A stretch of 64,000 nucleotides of DNA. Origin: an uncultured Clostridia bacterium. GTDB lineage: Bacteria; Bacillota; Clostridia; Christensenellales; Borkfalkiaceae. Location of the stretch: contig CANQKF010000001.1 in NCBI GenBank assembly GCA_947624445.1, positions 89,204 to 153,203 of the forward strand, given 5' to 3'. Below are positions 2,836-7,836 of this stretch, in pieces. Both the position numbers and the translations under genes were made by a program. Each line of letters opens with the position of its first letter. The first letter of the stretch is position 1. The notes beneath the pieces are model-generated. The model saw nothing but the letters and a program-made list of their open reading frames with translations, searched no databases and was not told the DNA's origin.

Positions 2836-4053
2836 TTGAACTTCCAAGAGCTATCGACAATTTATCAGATTCTAAACGAGATACCGACAGAAGGTATGCG
2901 GGAACAGGCGTTGCAGATGATGCTACATAGTGCTACGCCGATTCCCACTATCGAAAAAATCTCTGGAACTGATACGCTGTTCTCTTTGAGGTTCACCAAA
3001 AAGGAGATGTCAATTATGCCACAAGAACTACAAGAACGGTTGAACGAAGCAAGGCGCGGACGCTGGATTAGGCAAAAGGCAAACGGAATTTATGAAATCC
3101 GAATGTCAATCAGCGGCGTCCAATTCTACGCCTCAGCAAAAGACCTCGCGGTCGCCAAACGCAAGTTCCTCGACGCTGTCAGGTGTGAAACAGGAGGAGA
3201 GACCATGCCGATAATGGCAAAAAAGCGCATTGCAAGCGGTGTGACATTTGGGGAGTTTGCCGATAGATGGCTCACCGTCACCAAGAAACCTCGCGTCAAG
3301 GAAATCACATACGAGGAAATTAGTTTGCAGTTGAAGAACCACCTGCTCCCCCGCTTCGGGGAAGTCCCTATCACAGACATCCACACAATGGAAATCGATG
3401 AGTTCATCAACTCGTATATAGAACGAGGTCAGGCGAGGACTGCTCTCAAACTGTACGTCACGCTGAAGGACATCTTCAACTGCGCCACTCTCGATGAAGT
3501 TATCAAGAGGAACCCCGCGGAGAAAATCCAGAAACCGACATACGAAGCAAAAAGCGGGGCTGCCCTATCGCGTGAGGAAGAGTTTGAACTCGTGAATAAG
3601 CTCTTCGAGAACAATGACCCTTGCCGCTACGCAATCGTCTTCATTCTCTATACGGGGATGAGGCGCTCCGAGCTGAAGTCGGCGTCAACGGACGGGGTAT
3701 GGATCACCGTTTCCTGCGCGAAGACGCGCAAAGGGAAGGAGCGGACGAGAAAGGTTCCGATCACCCCCATGCTCCGTCCCTACATCGAACACTTCACCAA
3801 GGAGAACCTTTGCTTCACGGACGACCGTCTCTCCCGCGTCGTGCCGAAATATCTCGAAGGCCACACGACGCATCACCTTCGCCACACGTTCATCACCCGC
3901 GCACAGGAGTGCGGAGTTTCGAAGGAAATCGTGAAGCTGTGGGTCGGACACTCCGCAAACAAGCGGGACATGACAGAGTCAGTTTACACCCATTTCTCCG
4001 AGGAATTTCAGCTGTCGGAAGCAACGAAAATTTCCTACGAACCACAGGTCTAA
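2836..4053 (+). CDS. tyrosine recombinase / integrase (TTG start)
   Basis: Catalytic residues visible: TGMRRSE (R), KTRKGKERTRKVPI (K), HHLRHTF (H..R), WVGHS (H), VYTHF (Y); convergent with a tRNA 3' end. Confidence 0.93.
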   Translation: MNFQELSTIYQILNEIPTEGMREQALQMMLHSATPIPTIEKISGTDTLFSLRFTKKEMSIMPQELQERLNEARRGRWIRQKANGIYEIRMSISGVQFYASAKDLAVAKRKFLDAVRCETGGETMPIMAKKRIASGVTFGEFADRWLTVTKKPRVKEITYEEISLQLKNHLLPRFGEVPITDIHTMEIDEFINSYIERGQARTALKLYVTLKDIFNCATLDEVIKRNPAEKIQKPTYEAKSGAALSREEEFELVNKLFENNDPCRYAIVFILYTGMRRSELKSASTDGVWITVSCAKTRKGKERTRKVPITPMLRPYIEHFTKENLCFTDDRLSRVVPKYLEGHTTHHLRHTFITRAQECGVSKEIVKLWVGHSANKRDMTESVYTHFSEEFQLSEATKISYEPQV

Positions 4054-4155: not shown

Positions 4156-4238
4156 TGGTGCGGACGGTGGGACTCGAACCCACATGGTCTCCCACAGGAA
4201 CCTGAAACCTGCGCGTCTGCCAATTTCGCCACATCCGC
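4156..4238 (-). tRNA. tRNA-Leu (CAG), CCA encoded
   Basis: Minus strand GCGGATGTGGCGAAATTGGCAGACGCGCAGGTTTCAGGTTCCTG..GTGGGTTCGAGTCCCACCGTCCGCACCA; acceptor stem GCGGATG/CGTCCGC, T-loop GTTCGAGTC, loop TTCAGGT. Confidence 0.95.
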
Positions 4239-4289: not shown

Positions 4290-4973
4290 TCAAAACTCCG
4301 TTTTGACGACCTTCTCGCCCGAAGTGCCGTCGAGCTTCCACACTTTTCCGCCCGCCGAGACGCTGCGGACGGGTTCGCCGTCTGCGATCTCGAGGGCTGC
4401 GTTGTTCTCGACGCCCCAAGCGCAGTATCTATTATACAACAGGATACGATCGAAGTCAAGCATTCTTTCGTTGTAATGGGGAGAAATTTTTCCCTTTAAC
4501 CACCCGAGGCCGCGGTGCATATGGTATTCCCCCTCGACGACGGAATCGGTGTACATCTCCTCGAACCAGCAGATCGCCCCCGCGGAGAGACCCGCAAGCG
4601 GGACGCCGCGGCCGTAAGCCTCCCCGATATACGAAAGCAGGCCCGTCGCCTTCCACGATTCGAGCATAAAGACGGTATTCCCGCCGCCGACATAGATGAG
4701 ATCTGCCTCGCCGAACTTCTTCTTCATCTTCTCGGGGTCGATTTCCCGCCCCACCGTGAGGGCGACGTCGGTTTTGAGCCCAAAGACGCCCGTGTAGACC
4801 TTATGGAAGGTGTTGTAGTAAGGCATGCAGTCGTGGCTGGCCGTGGGGATGAAAAGCATGCAGGGCCGCCGCTCGCCCGCATGCGCCTTGGCGAGTCCGG
4901 CGATGTAGGCGTCGATCTTCAGCGTCTCCTGCGTTTTGAGTTCACCGCCCCCGATGAGGATCATGCGCGCCAT
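4290..4973 (-). CDS. pepE: peptidase E / S51 family dipeptidase
   Basis: MILIGGGELKTQ..IYVGGGNTVFML..GLSAGAICWFEEMYTDS. Confidence 0.85.
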   Translation of the reverse strand: MARMILIGGGELKTQETLKIDAYIAGLAKAHAGERRPCMLFIPTASHDCMPYYNTFHKVYTGVFGLKTDVALTVGREIDPEKMKKKFGEADLIYVGGGNTVFMLESWKATGLLSYIGEAYGRGVPLAGLSAGAICWFEEMYTDSVVEGEYHMHRGLGWLKGKISPHYNERMLDFDRILLYNRYCAWGVENNAALEIADGEPVRSVSAGGKVWKLDGTSGEKVVKTEF

Positions 4974-4974
4974 T

Positions 4975-5817
4975 TTATCGGTTCTCCCCCTCTTTCTTCG
5001 CGTTCTCTTCGAGGCTCGCCGCTTCGTCCGCGGAGATGCCCGCCGTGCGGTCGACGGGGACCGAAAAGATGACGCCGCCCGCCTCCGTCTTGGCGCCGAC
5101 GCGCTCGGAAAGCGCGTTCATGATCTGCATCGCCGCCTCTTTCTTGGTGAGGATCATCAGGATCTCCTGCTCGCGCATCAGGGAGATGCCGATGAACTGT
5201 TCCGCCTTTTCGTTGCTCATCGCGCGGGAACGGACGATCGTCCCCCCTGCCGCGCCCGCTTCGCGCGCCGCTTCCATGGCGCTGTCCACATAGTTTGCGG
5301 CGACCGCCGCGACGATGAGCGAATATTTTCTATCTTCCGATTTCATGATCGTGCCCCTATCCGTGGTTTTGTTGGTCGAAGCCGACGTGACGCCCTTTGC
5401 GACGATGCCCGAGACGCCCGAGAGCGGGACCGTGAAGGAAATGCCCCGCCCGACGAGGTAGAGCGCCATCTTGTTGCGCAGTTCGCGCAGGATGAGCGCT
5501 TCGTCGCTCTCGGGGATGAGGGAGATGAGCACGGACTTCTCGGTCTGCCCGATGCCGAAATAGTCGAGCATGGCGGACCGCGCCGTGCCCGTTCCCGCAA
5601 AGGTATAGGAGAGCGCGACGGAGCAGGCGTCGAGGGTCTCTTTCAGCCGCGCCTCGTCCTTGAGGTTGACGACGCTGATCAGCAACTTTGCGCGGAGGGG
5701 CATCTCGGGCTGTTTCCCGCCGTGCTGCGCCGCAAAGTGCACCCCTCTTCCGCCCGACGGCTTGTGCGGCGCGCTCTTGGATCTCTGTTTGCCTTCCTCG
5801 TGCTTTTCCGCCATCAC
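4975..5817 (-). CDS. tandem PII-like regulator (two PII-like halves)
   Basis: Two repeated alpha/beta halves (KLLISVVNLKDEARLKETLDACSVA.. and KYSLIVAAVAANYVDSAMEAAREAGAAGGTIVRSRAM..); GTG 5817 or ATG 5814 start overlaps the upstream stop. Confidence 0.65.
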   Translation of the reverse strand: MMAEKHEEGKQRSKSAPHKPSGGRGVHFAAQHGGKQPEMPLRAKLLISVVNLKDEARLKETLDACSVALSYTFAGTGTARSAMLDYFGIGQTEKSVLISLIPESDEALILRELRNKMALYLVGRGISFTVPLSGVSGIVAKGVTSASTNKTTDRGTIMKSEDRKYSLIVAAVAANYVDSAMEAAREAGAAGGTIVRSRAMSNEKAEQFIGISLMREQEILMILTKKEAAMQIMNALSERVGAKTEAGGVIFSVPVDRTAGISADEAASLEENAKKEGENR

Positions 5818-7367
5818 TCCACCTCGTATTCGAGTATTTTCTCCTCGACGGAGAGGAAATTCCGCTTGATCTTGCCTGTCTTGCGCTTATAGAGGATGCC
5901 GAGCACCTGGATGGAGATGAGCGGCGTGAGCGCAACGAAAGCGATACAGCCGAATGCCTGCGTCATGATGAGAGAGGTATCCCCTCCGCCGAGCGTGTAG
6001 CATGCGCCGATCGCGAGCGGGAGGACGAACGAAGAGACCATCGCGCCGCTCGCGACCCCGCCCGAGTCGAACGCGATGCCCGTAAACACGGGCGGCGTGA
6101 AGAAGGTGAGGATGAGCGCGATGGCGTATCCCGGGGCGAGGATCCACATGAGATTGATGCCCGTGAGGATGCGGAGCATCGCGAGCCCGAGCGAAATGCA
6201 CACGCCGATGCACAGCCCGCGCTTCATCGAGGCGGCGGAGATCGCGCCCGCGGACATGCGCTCGACCTGCTTGTTCAGAACGTGCACGGCGGGCTCGGCG
6301 GCAACGATGAAATAGCCGATGAGCATGCCGACGGGAATGAGCAGCGCCCCCTTCCAGAGCGCGGCAAGCCCCTCTCCGATCGCCCTGCCGACGGGCATAA
6401 AGCCGACGTTCGCGCCCGTGAGAAAGAGCACGAGCCCGAGAAAGGTATACAAGAAGCCCATGAATACCCTCACGACCAAGCGCTTATGGAAGGAGCGCGT
6501 GAAGAGCTGGAAGAACAGGAAAAACGCGACGATGGGCGAGATCGCGATCGCGACCTCTTTGGCGTAGTCCGCAAATCCGTGAAGATAGGCCGAGAGCACG
6601 CCCCGCGTATCCGTCACCTCCATGAGCGCCTCGTAGGGATAATCGGGATCCTGCACCTTGAACACGATGCCGAGCACGAGCACGGCGATGATCGGCCCCA
6701 CGCTCGAGAGCGCGACGAGACCGAAGGAGTCGTCCTGTCCCCCGCTGCCCGCGCGCAGCGACGCGACGCCGACGCCGAGCGAAATGATGAACGGCACCGT
6801 CATGGGGCCCGTCGTCACGCCGCCCGCGTCGAAGGAGACCGCCCAGAATGAGGGATCCACGAAGGCGCTCGCGACGAACGCCCCGACGTAGAACACGACG
6901 AGCAGGATGGAAAGGCGGATGTGCAGCACGATGCGGAGCATCGCGATCATGAGAAAGATCCCCACGCCGACCGCGACGGTGAGGATGAGAAGATAGTTCC
7001 CGAGCGGCGTTTTTCCCGCGATCGCGGGCACCTGCCGCGCGAGGATCTGAAGATCGGGCTCTGCGATCGTCACGATGATGCCGATGATGAAAGAGATCAG
7101 CGCGATGAGCCAGACTTTGCGCGATTTGGTGACCGCCGAGCCGATGCGCTCGCCGATGACGAGCATCGACATATCGGCGCCCTGCGTAAAGAGCCCCATC
7201 CCGAAGATCAGTAAAAAAACGCCCGTGAAAAACAATACGAACGTTCCCGCCTTGAGCGGCGTCACCGTGAGCGCGAGCGCGATCACGATCAGGGCGATCG
7301 GCAAGATCGAAGTGAGCGATTCCACGATCTTATCGCGAAGCGCCTTTGTCATGCGCAATTTCTCCAT
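5814..7367 (-). CDS. DUF1538 family membrane protein (putative transporter)
   Basis: Multi-TM protein with internal duplication; repeated motif SFDAGGVTTGPM / AFDSGGVASGAM. Confidence 0.8.
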   Translation of the reverse strand: MEKLRMTKALRDKIVESLTSILPIALIVIALALTVTPLKAGTFVLFFTGVFLLIFGMGLFTQGADMSMLVIGERIGSAVTKSRKVWLIALISFIIGIIVTIAEPDLQILARQVPAIAGKTPLGNYLLILTVAVGVGIFLMIAMLRIVLHIRLSILLVVFYVGAFVASAFVDPSFWAVSFDAGGVTTGPMTVPFIISLGVGVASLRAGSGGQDDSFGLVALSSVGPIIAVLVLGIVFKVQDPDYPYEALMEVTDTRGVLSAYLHGFADYAKEVAIAISPIVAFFLFFQLFTRSFHKRLVVRVFMGFLYTFLGLVLFLTGANVGFMPVGRAIGEGLAALWKGALLIPVGMLIGYFIVAAEPAVHVLNKQVERMSAGAISAASMKRGLCIGVCISLGLAMLRILTGINLMWILAPGYAIALILTFFTPPVFTGIAFDSGGVASGAMVSSFVLPLAIGACYTLGGGDTSLIMTQAFGCIAFVALTPLISIQVLGILYKRKTGKIKRNFLSVEEKILEYEVE

Positions 7368-7383
7368 GGATCCGTCTCAAACA

Positions 7384-7836
7384 TCAGCGGGAGTACTTTT
7401 CCTCGATCGCCGCGATCTTACCGATGCGGCGCATGTGCTTTTCTTCGCCCGAAAACGGCGTCTCAAGGAACACGCGCACGATCTCGAGCGCGAGATTGAC
7501 GCCGACGAACGCCCCGCCGAGCGCGAGCATGTTCGCGTCGTTGTGCAGGCGCGTCATCTTCGCGGAGAGCGGCTCCGAACACAGCGCGCAGCGGATACCG
7601 CGCACCTTGTTCGCGGCGATGGAGATGCCGATGCCCGTCGTGCAGACGACGATCCCCCGCTCGCATTCCCCGTTTGCGACGGCCTCCGCCGCCGCAAGCC
7701 CGAAATCGGGATAGTCGCAGGAATCCGCGCAGTGCGTCCCGTAGTCGATGACCTCGTACCCTGCTTCCGTGAGATATGCCGCGATCTGTTGCTTGAGCGC
7801 AAGCCCGCCGTGATCGCAGCCCATGGCGATTTTCAT
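7384..7836 (-). CDS. rpiB: ribose 5-phosphate isomerase B
   Basis: MKIAMGCDHGGLALKQQI..VCTTGIGISIAANKVRGIRCAL..HNDANMLALG. Confidence 0.95.
   Translation of the reverse strand: MKIAMGCDHGGLALKQQIAAYLTEAGYEVIDYGTHCADSCDYPDFGLAAAEAVANGECERGIVVCTTGIGISIAANKVRGIRCALCSEPLSAKMTRLHNDANMLALGGAFVGVNLALEIVRVFLETPFSGEEKHMRRIGKIAAIEEKYSR

Follow-up and report, generated by a model that had tools for sequence, protein, structure and literature searches.

A DUF1538 membrane protein and a tandem PII-like protein form a widespread transporter–PII module

The window, the whole 64,000-nucleotide stretch of Clostridia DNA analysed here, carries three open reading frames on the minus strand, encoding a DUF1538 membrane protein, a PII-like protein and an S51-family hydrolase (Table 1). 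The DUF1538 frame is annotated at 5814–7367 (−) with 517 amino acids. Met6, at 7352, is the likelier start from sequence comparison, because most relatives begin there and it has the better Shine–Dalgarno sequence (GGAGAAA). The stop codon of DUF1538 overlaps the start of the PII-like gene, as the preliminary description of this DNA had it, and the shared TGATG likely couples translation of the two proteins. Upstream, rpiB ends 16 nt from the annotated DUF1538 start. It adjoins DUF1538 only in close relatives and is treated as a lineage-specific passenger, outside the DUF1538–PII module. Elsewhere in the window, the gene for an XerD-like tyrosine recombinase (2836–4053, +) stops about 100 nt short of the 3′ end of tRNA-Leu(CAG) (4156–4238, −), a layout that would fit an integrative element on the left whose att site is in the tRNA, and the anaerobic ribonucleoside-triphosphate reductase NrdD is encoded at 38–1984.

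Table 1. Features of the locus, in window coordinates
Feature	Position	Strand	Evidence
S51-family hydrolase	4290..4973	-	PF03575, 1e-35; below PepE and cyanophycinase cut-offs
Tandem PII-like protein (ATG at 5814, in-frame GTG at 5817)	4975..5814	-	Pfam P-II on C half; independent profile on both halves; fold
PII-like domain C (residues 159-262, counted from GTG)	5032..5343	-	Profile of free-standing PIIs, 68.6 bits; Pfam P-II, 5e-6
PII-like domain N (residues 44-140, counted from GTG)	5398..5688	-	Profile of free-standing PIIs, 36.9 bits
TGATG (DUF1538 stop/PII-like start overlap)	5812..5816	-	Sequence
DUF1538 double-repeat membrane protein, putative cation/H+ antiporter	5814..7352	-	PF07556 x2; UmpA/UmpB models, below cut-off; AlphaFold; start of relatives
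DUF1538 repeat 2 (residues 261-497; E358, 6294-6296; D434, 6066-6068)	5877..6587	-	Profile match; conserved columns
DUF1538 repeat 1 (residues 4-239; E103, 7059-7061; D180, 6828-6830)	6651..7358	-	Profile match; conserved columns
RpiB, upstream neighbour	7384..7836	-	NCBIfam rpiB, 9e-53; neighbourhoods

The membrane protein is composed of two PF07556 repeats (E 3e-128; 425.8 bits against a gathering score of 22.6), which share 28% identity (65 of 230 aligned residues). The internal duplication proposed for it earlier is thereby borne out, and both motifs quoted in its support are present. The equivalog models for UmpA and UmpB (NF041627 and NF041628) match at 1.8e-43 and 5.7e-32. Since the scores of 148.5 and 111.1 bits are far below the cut-offs of 490 and 500, we file the protein in the UmpAB family and not as a UmpAB equivalog. 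Each repeat contains a glutamate in an AEP motif and an aspartate in an FDxGG motif. Of 78 first and 78 second repeats, 86% and 100%, respectively, keep both residues, as do all five DUF1538 proteins with one repeat; this conservation suggests that they are probably cation or proton sites. AlphaFold predicts the protein with fair confidence (pLDDT 81.8, pTM 0.82). Compared with the PDB by fold, the model has no significant match (TM-score below 0.2), and a sequence search for solved relatives likewise returned none (best E 0.014). A phage origin was considered and rejected, as a scan of viral contigs gave no relative.

The middle protein had been described as two PII-like halves in one chain. 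Pfam P-II (PF00543) detects the C half only (27.2 bits against a gathering score of 25) and misses the N half. A PII profile made solely from free-standing relatives in other genomes, with the window protein left out, matches both. The AlphaFold model, of moderate confidence (mean pLDDT 69.5), has two ferredoxin-like β-α-β-β-α-β units, and GlnK and SbtB are among its PDB matches with a probability of 1.00; some other double ferredoxin-like folds outrank them by E-value, with poor TM-scores. Both halves are predicted to have the PII fold, and the structure prediction on which the preliminary description had let its proposal stand or fall came out PII-like.

Compared with solved PII proteins, the DUF1538-linked group has retained the paired glycines at the base of the T-loop and in the B-loop, and its T-loop is shorter. 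The B-loop reads GxGIAF, with a hydrophobic residue in place of the canonical Lys/Arg. The hallmarks of canonical GlnB/GlnK, namely a GDG[KR]IF B-loop, a full-length T-loop and an AmtB partner, are lacking. The C-terminal CGPxGC motif, a feature of some SbtB proteins but not all, is also absent from the sequence, and the partner is DUF1538. A ligand cleft is plausible from the residues of this group; nucleotide binding is not assured, because the B-loop Lys/Arg is lost.

We surveyed loci from 27 close relatives, 60 of the phylum and 7 on plasmids, plus a set pulled as a guard against cherry-picking. At about 107 of about 109 loci with a readable downstream side, the gene directly downstream of DUF1538 encodes a PII. 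The conserved neighbourhood, whose absence had also been named as fatal to the proposal, is therefore present. The two exceptions are L136 and L142. At L136, DUF1538 is decayed, with several stops, and no PII is present; L142 is irregular, with PII upstream of DUF1538 and no second DUF1538 after it. Co-occurrence across genomes, another check proposed beforehand, gives the same picture: among 200 genomes, all from the window's phylum, 67 have DUF1538, 67 have the PII type (counted where E is under 1e-15) and the two occur together in 66. Only one of the 133 genomes without DUF1538 has a PII of this type. The misfits are G056, with a decayed DUF1538 gene, and G049. The sole DUF1538 genome of this sample without the PII type is the one with the decayed locus L136.

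As the genome sample covers one phylum, plasmid records were used to reach Proteobacteria. Among 72,556 of them, a DUF1538 search and a separate PII search give the same 9 records, which include the alphaproteobacteria Methylocystis and Chelativorans, and NCBI-annotated P-II genes adjoin DUF1538 in plasmid records. Beyond this pair little is shared. Any further neighbour family is common to at most 7 of 67 loci, and few neighbours are co-directional within 150 nt (upstream 16 of 71, downstream 14 of 70). A larger operon with a shared pathway was rejected, the outer neighbours not being conserved. The conserved module consists of DUF1538 and PII only, and it is a real and widespread transporter–PII module.

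The third gene probably does not belong to it. As described earlier, it begins 1 nt after the PII-like gene (TAA A ATG), whereas the name pepE is too specific: the product reaches 38.2 bits against a cut-off of 156 for the PepE model NF003642, falls short of the cyanophycinase cut-off as well, and is an S51 protein by Pfam (PF03575, 123.5 bits against 23.9), with S130 and H166 conserved. The gene is limited to the window's lineage (about 22 close loci). It was not found at L020, L021, L024 and L026, nor at 67 other loci (L061–L127). It is in the same transcription unit yet probably outside the module, and is treated as a lineage-specific passenger. The fuller idea of the preliminary description, a module of three parts whose peptidase provides or uses up the substrate being transported, would account for the tight spacing of the three genes here and at about 21 close loci. 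Given the absence of S51 from so many loci and its scores below both specific models, we regard that idea as very improbable, and a dipeptidase as a module member is not supported.

The number and arrangement of the units vary among loci in a graded series. One-repeat DUF1538 proteins occur with one PII (L128, L129, L130, L138 and L139). Split pairs of DUF1538 genes are accompanied by one PII (18 loci), by two separate PIIs (3 loci, plus L082) or by a tandem PII (10 loci). Methylocystis rosea has the split type. Fused transporters have two separate PIIs at 1 locus and a tandem PII, the window's type, at 64; a fused transporter with a single PII was found at none of the loci counted by architecture. 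Two complete modules stand in tandem at L064 (fused type) and at L095 and L096 (split type). Raw counts are inflated by relatedness, and the transporter tree is the fairer measure; it has one change for the fusion, two for one versus two PIIs and four for tandem versus separate PIIs. On this tree the neighbours of the fused clade are split loci in which two PIIs are already present, so that doubling of the regulator appears to have preceded fusion of the transporter. Of the two separate PIIs at L061, one groups with the N half and the other with the C half in the domain tree. That the two PII units have fused and split repeatedly suggests that both act in one complex. The pairing of a duplicated regulator with a duplicated transporter, noted earlier for the window, is confirmed on both sides, with a strongly conserved neighbourhood, and the doubled regulator is not peculiar to the window genome.

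We consider it very probable that the PII acts on DUF1538. Alternatively, the PII-like protein might never touch the transporter and be a co-expressed reporter of the same ion or energy state whose target, an enzyme or a transcription factor, is elsewhere. PII proteins have many targets, and a few orphan copies of this type are away from DUF1538. The near-absolute one-to-one linkage in order and strand, the lack of any other neighbour common to the loci and the stepwise match of PII copy number to the transporter all argue against a separate sensor, which we judge improbable.

The few PIIs of this type without DUF1538 nearby are at L155–L158. At L158 (262–2103), a single PII lies about 10 nt beyond the gene of a CPA Na+/H+ exchanger that has a TrkA_C domain, possibly a second class of PII-linked antiporter. 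At L157 (908–4047), a single PII follows pntB, which encodes a subunit of the proton-translocating transhydrogenase, with a gap of about 260 nt. These are single cases each, and they hint at a wider tie of the PII type to ion and proton transport.

UmpAB of Halomonas zhaodongensis, a DUF1538 system, is a Na+(Li+,K+)/H+ antiporter in everted vesicles; it consists of two paired seven-transmembrane proteins, both needed, which rescue the salt-sensitive Escherichia coli KNabc (nhaA nhaB chaA; PMC5484666). The preliminary description could not infer a substrate. Because DUF1538 is the UmpAB family, a class can now be proposed, Na+, K+ or Li+ in exchange for H+, although for the window member the ion is only inferred from this kinship. 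We lean towards cation/H+ antiport by the window protein, and DUF1538 also appears in the set of pH-adaptation genes from a machine-learning study (PMC13255231). The combined reading, which we moderately favour, is a DUF1538 (UmpAB)-family cation/proton antiporter under a PII-type regulator dedicated to it. Support for the antiport part comes from a single study, and its subject was a distant relative. Counting against the combined reading are the two CPA Na+/H+ exchangers that the window genome encodes already, the orphan PIIs of the DUF1538 type, the hydrophobic B-loop residue, and the split pairs with a single PII, for which the count of transporter and PII is not strictly one-to-one. The PII beside the CPA exchanger at L158 counts in its favour.

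A competing possibility is that the PII does gate DUF1538, while the main substrate is an organic solute, such as an amino acid, organic acid or peptide, with cation/H+ exchange as the coupling or a side activity. This has some appeal, in that the sole functional study of DUF1538 concerns that distant relative, the S51 neighbour in the window acts on peptides by family, and a PII-like C-terminal domain is known from a membrane protein of the YitT family (PMC6516651). The antiport measured for UmpAB in everted vesicles (PMC5484666), the conserved Glu and Asp of each DUF1538 repeat and the lack of any metabolic neighbour conserved across the loci speak against it, and we hold an organic solute to be rather unlikely.

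The genome context bears on the ligand. The window genome has no other PF00543 protein and no AmtB, and PstA (PF06153) is unmatched both in the genome and by the tandem PII-like protein. Control of ammonium uptake is therefore unlikely, and this candidate was rejected. The genome encodes one diadenylate cyclase, so c-di-AMP is kept as a candidate ligand despite the absence of PstA. For the antiporter reading, we infer docking, gating, ligand, oligomer and ion as follows. The membrane protein would have two homologous units in a single chain, equivalent to UmpA plus UmpB, with cations or protons probably bound at the Glu (AEP) and Asp (FDxGG) of each. The PII-like protein would probably form a threefold-symmetric assembly and hold a small intracellular ligand between its subunits, most likely an adenine nucleotide and possibly c-di-AMP. 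It would dock on the cytoplasmic face of the transporter and open or block transport. By analogy, a plug as in SbtA–SbtB is favoured, with the PII domains serving the DUF1538 units. More tentatively, the tandem PII may be a two-input sensor, its diverged domains each serving one antiporter half, perhaps with different ligands and asymmetric gating; if true, pH and ion homeostasis would be under the control of a PII without a link to nitrogen.

PII proteins are known mainly for sensing nitrogen and carbon. With an almost strict link between a PII and an antiporter family, their control would reach into ion and pH homeostasis, and the pair is spread through about a third of the 200-genome phylum sample and is also present in Alphaproteobacteria. 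It suggests a little-studied switch for turning bacterial ion transport on and off. The DUF1538 family, without a solved structural relative, gains a regulator and a simple test system, and the natural variants (one unit plus one PII, pair plus one, pair plus two, fused plus tandem) offer a route to the rules of PII–transporter matching and plugging. In the literature covered, mostly without subscription journals and without preprints, we found nothing joining DUF1538 with PII and nothing on a tandem PII of this kind.

In AmtB–GlnK, the PII is encoded with, and plugs, an ammonium transporter. The window likewise encodes a PII alongside a transporter, but DUF1538 is unrelated to AmtB, which the genome lacks, and the PII group differs from GlnK in its shorter T-loop and changed B-loop. 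In SbtA–SbtB, the trimeric PII-like protein docks on the cytoplasmic side of the trimeric transporter, and its T-loops enter a cleft (PMC8352866). That bicarbonate system shares the gene order, transporter and then dedicated PII-like gene, whereas its transporter family is unrelated to DUF1538 and the window protein has two PII domains per chain and no CGPxGC C-terminal motif. In the c-di-AMP receptor PstA and the membrane-fused PII-like DUF2179 proteins (PMC4316997; PMC6516651), PII-fold domains signal outside nitrogen control. No PF06153 match is present in the window genome, whose PII, in contrast to the fused proteins, is separate. UmpAB is similar in Pfam family, in its two homologous units and in the conserved Glu/Asp and glycines. 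It differs from the window protein, which has both units in one chain and scores far below the UmpA/UmpB cut-offs, and its paper mentions no PII (PMC5484666). The pairing of a transporter with a dedicated PII, first likened to AmtB–GlnK and SbtA–SbtB from the layout, is supported. By analogy, the best reading is that the DUF1538–PII module works like GlnK–AmtB or SbtB–SbtA and belongs to neither.
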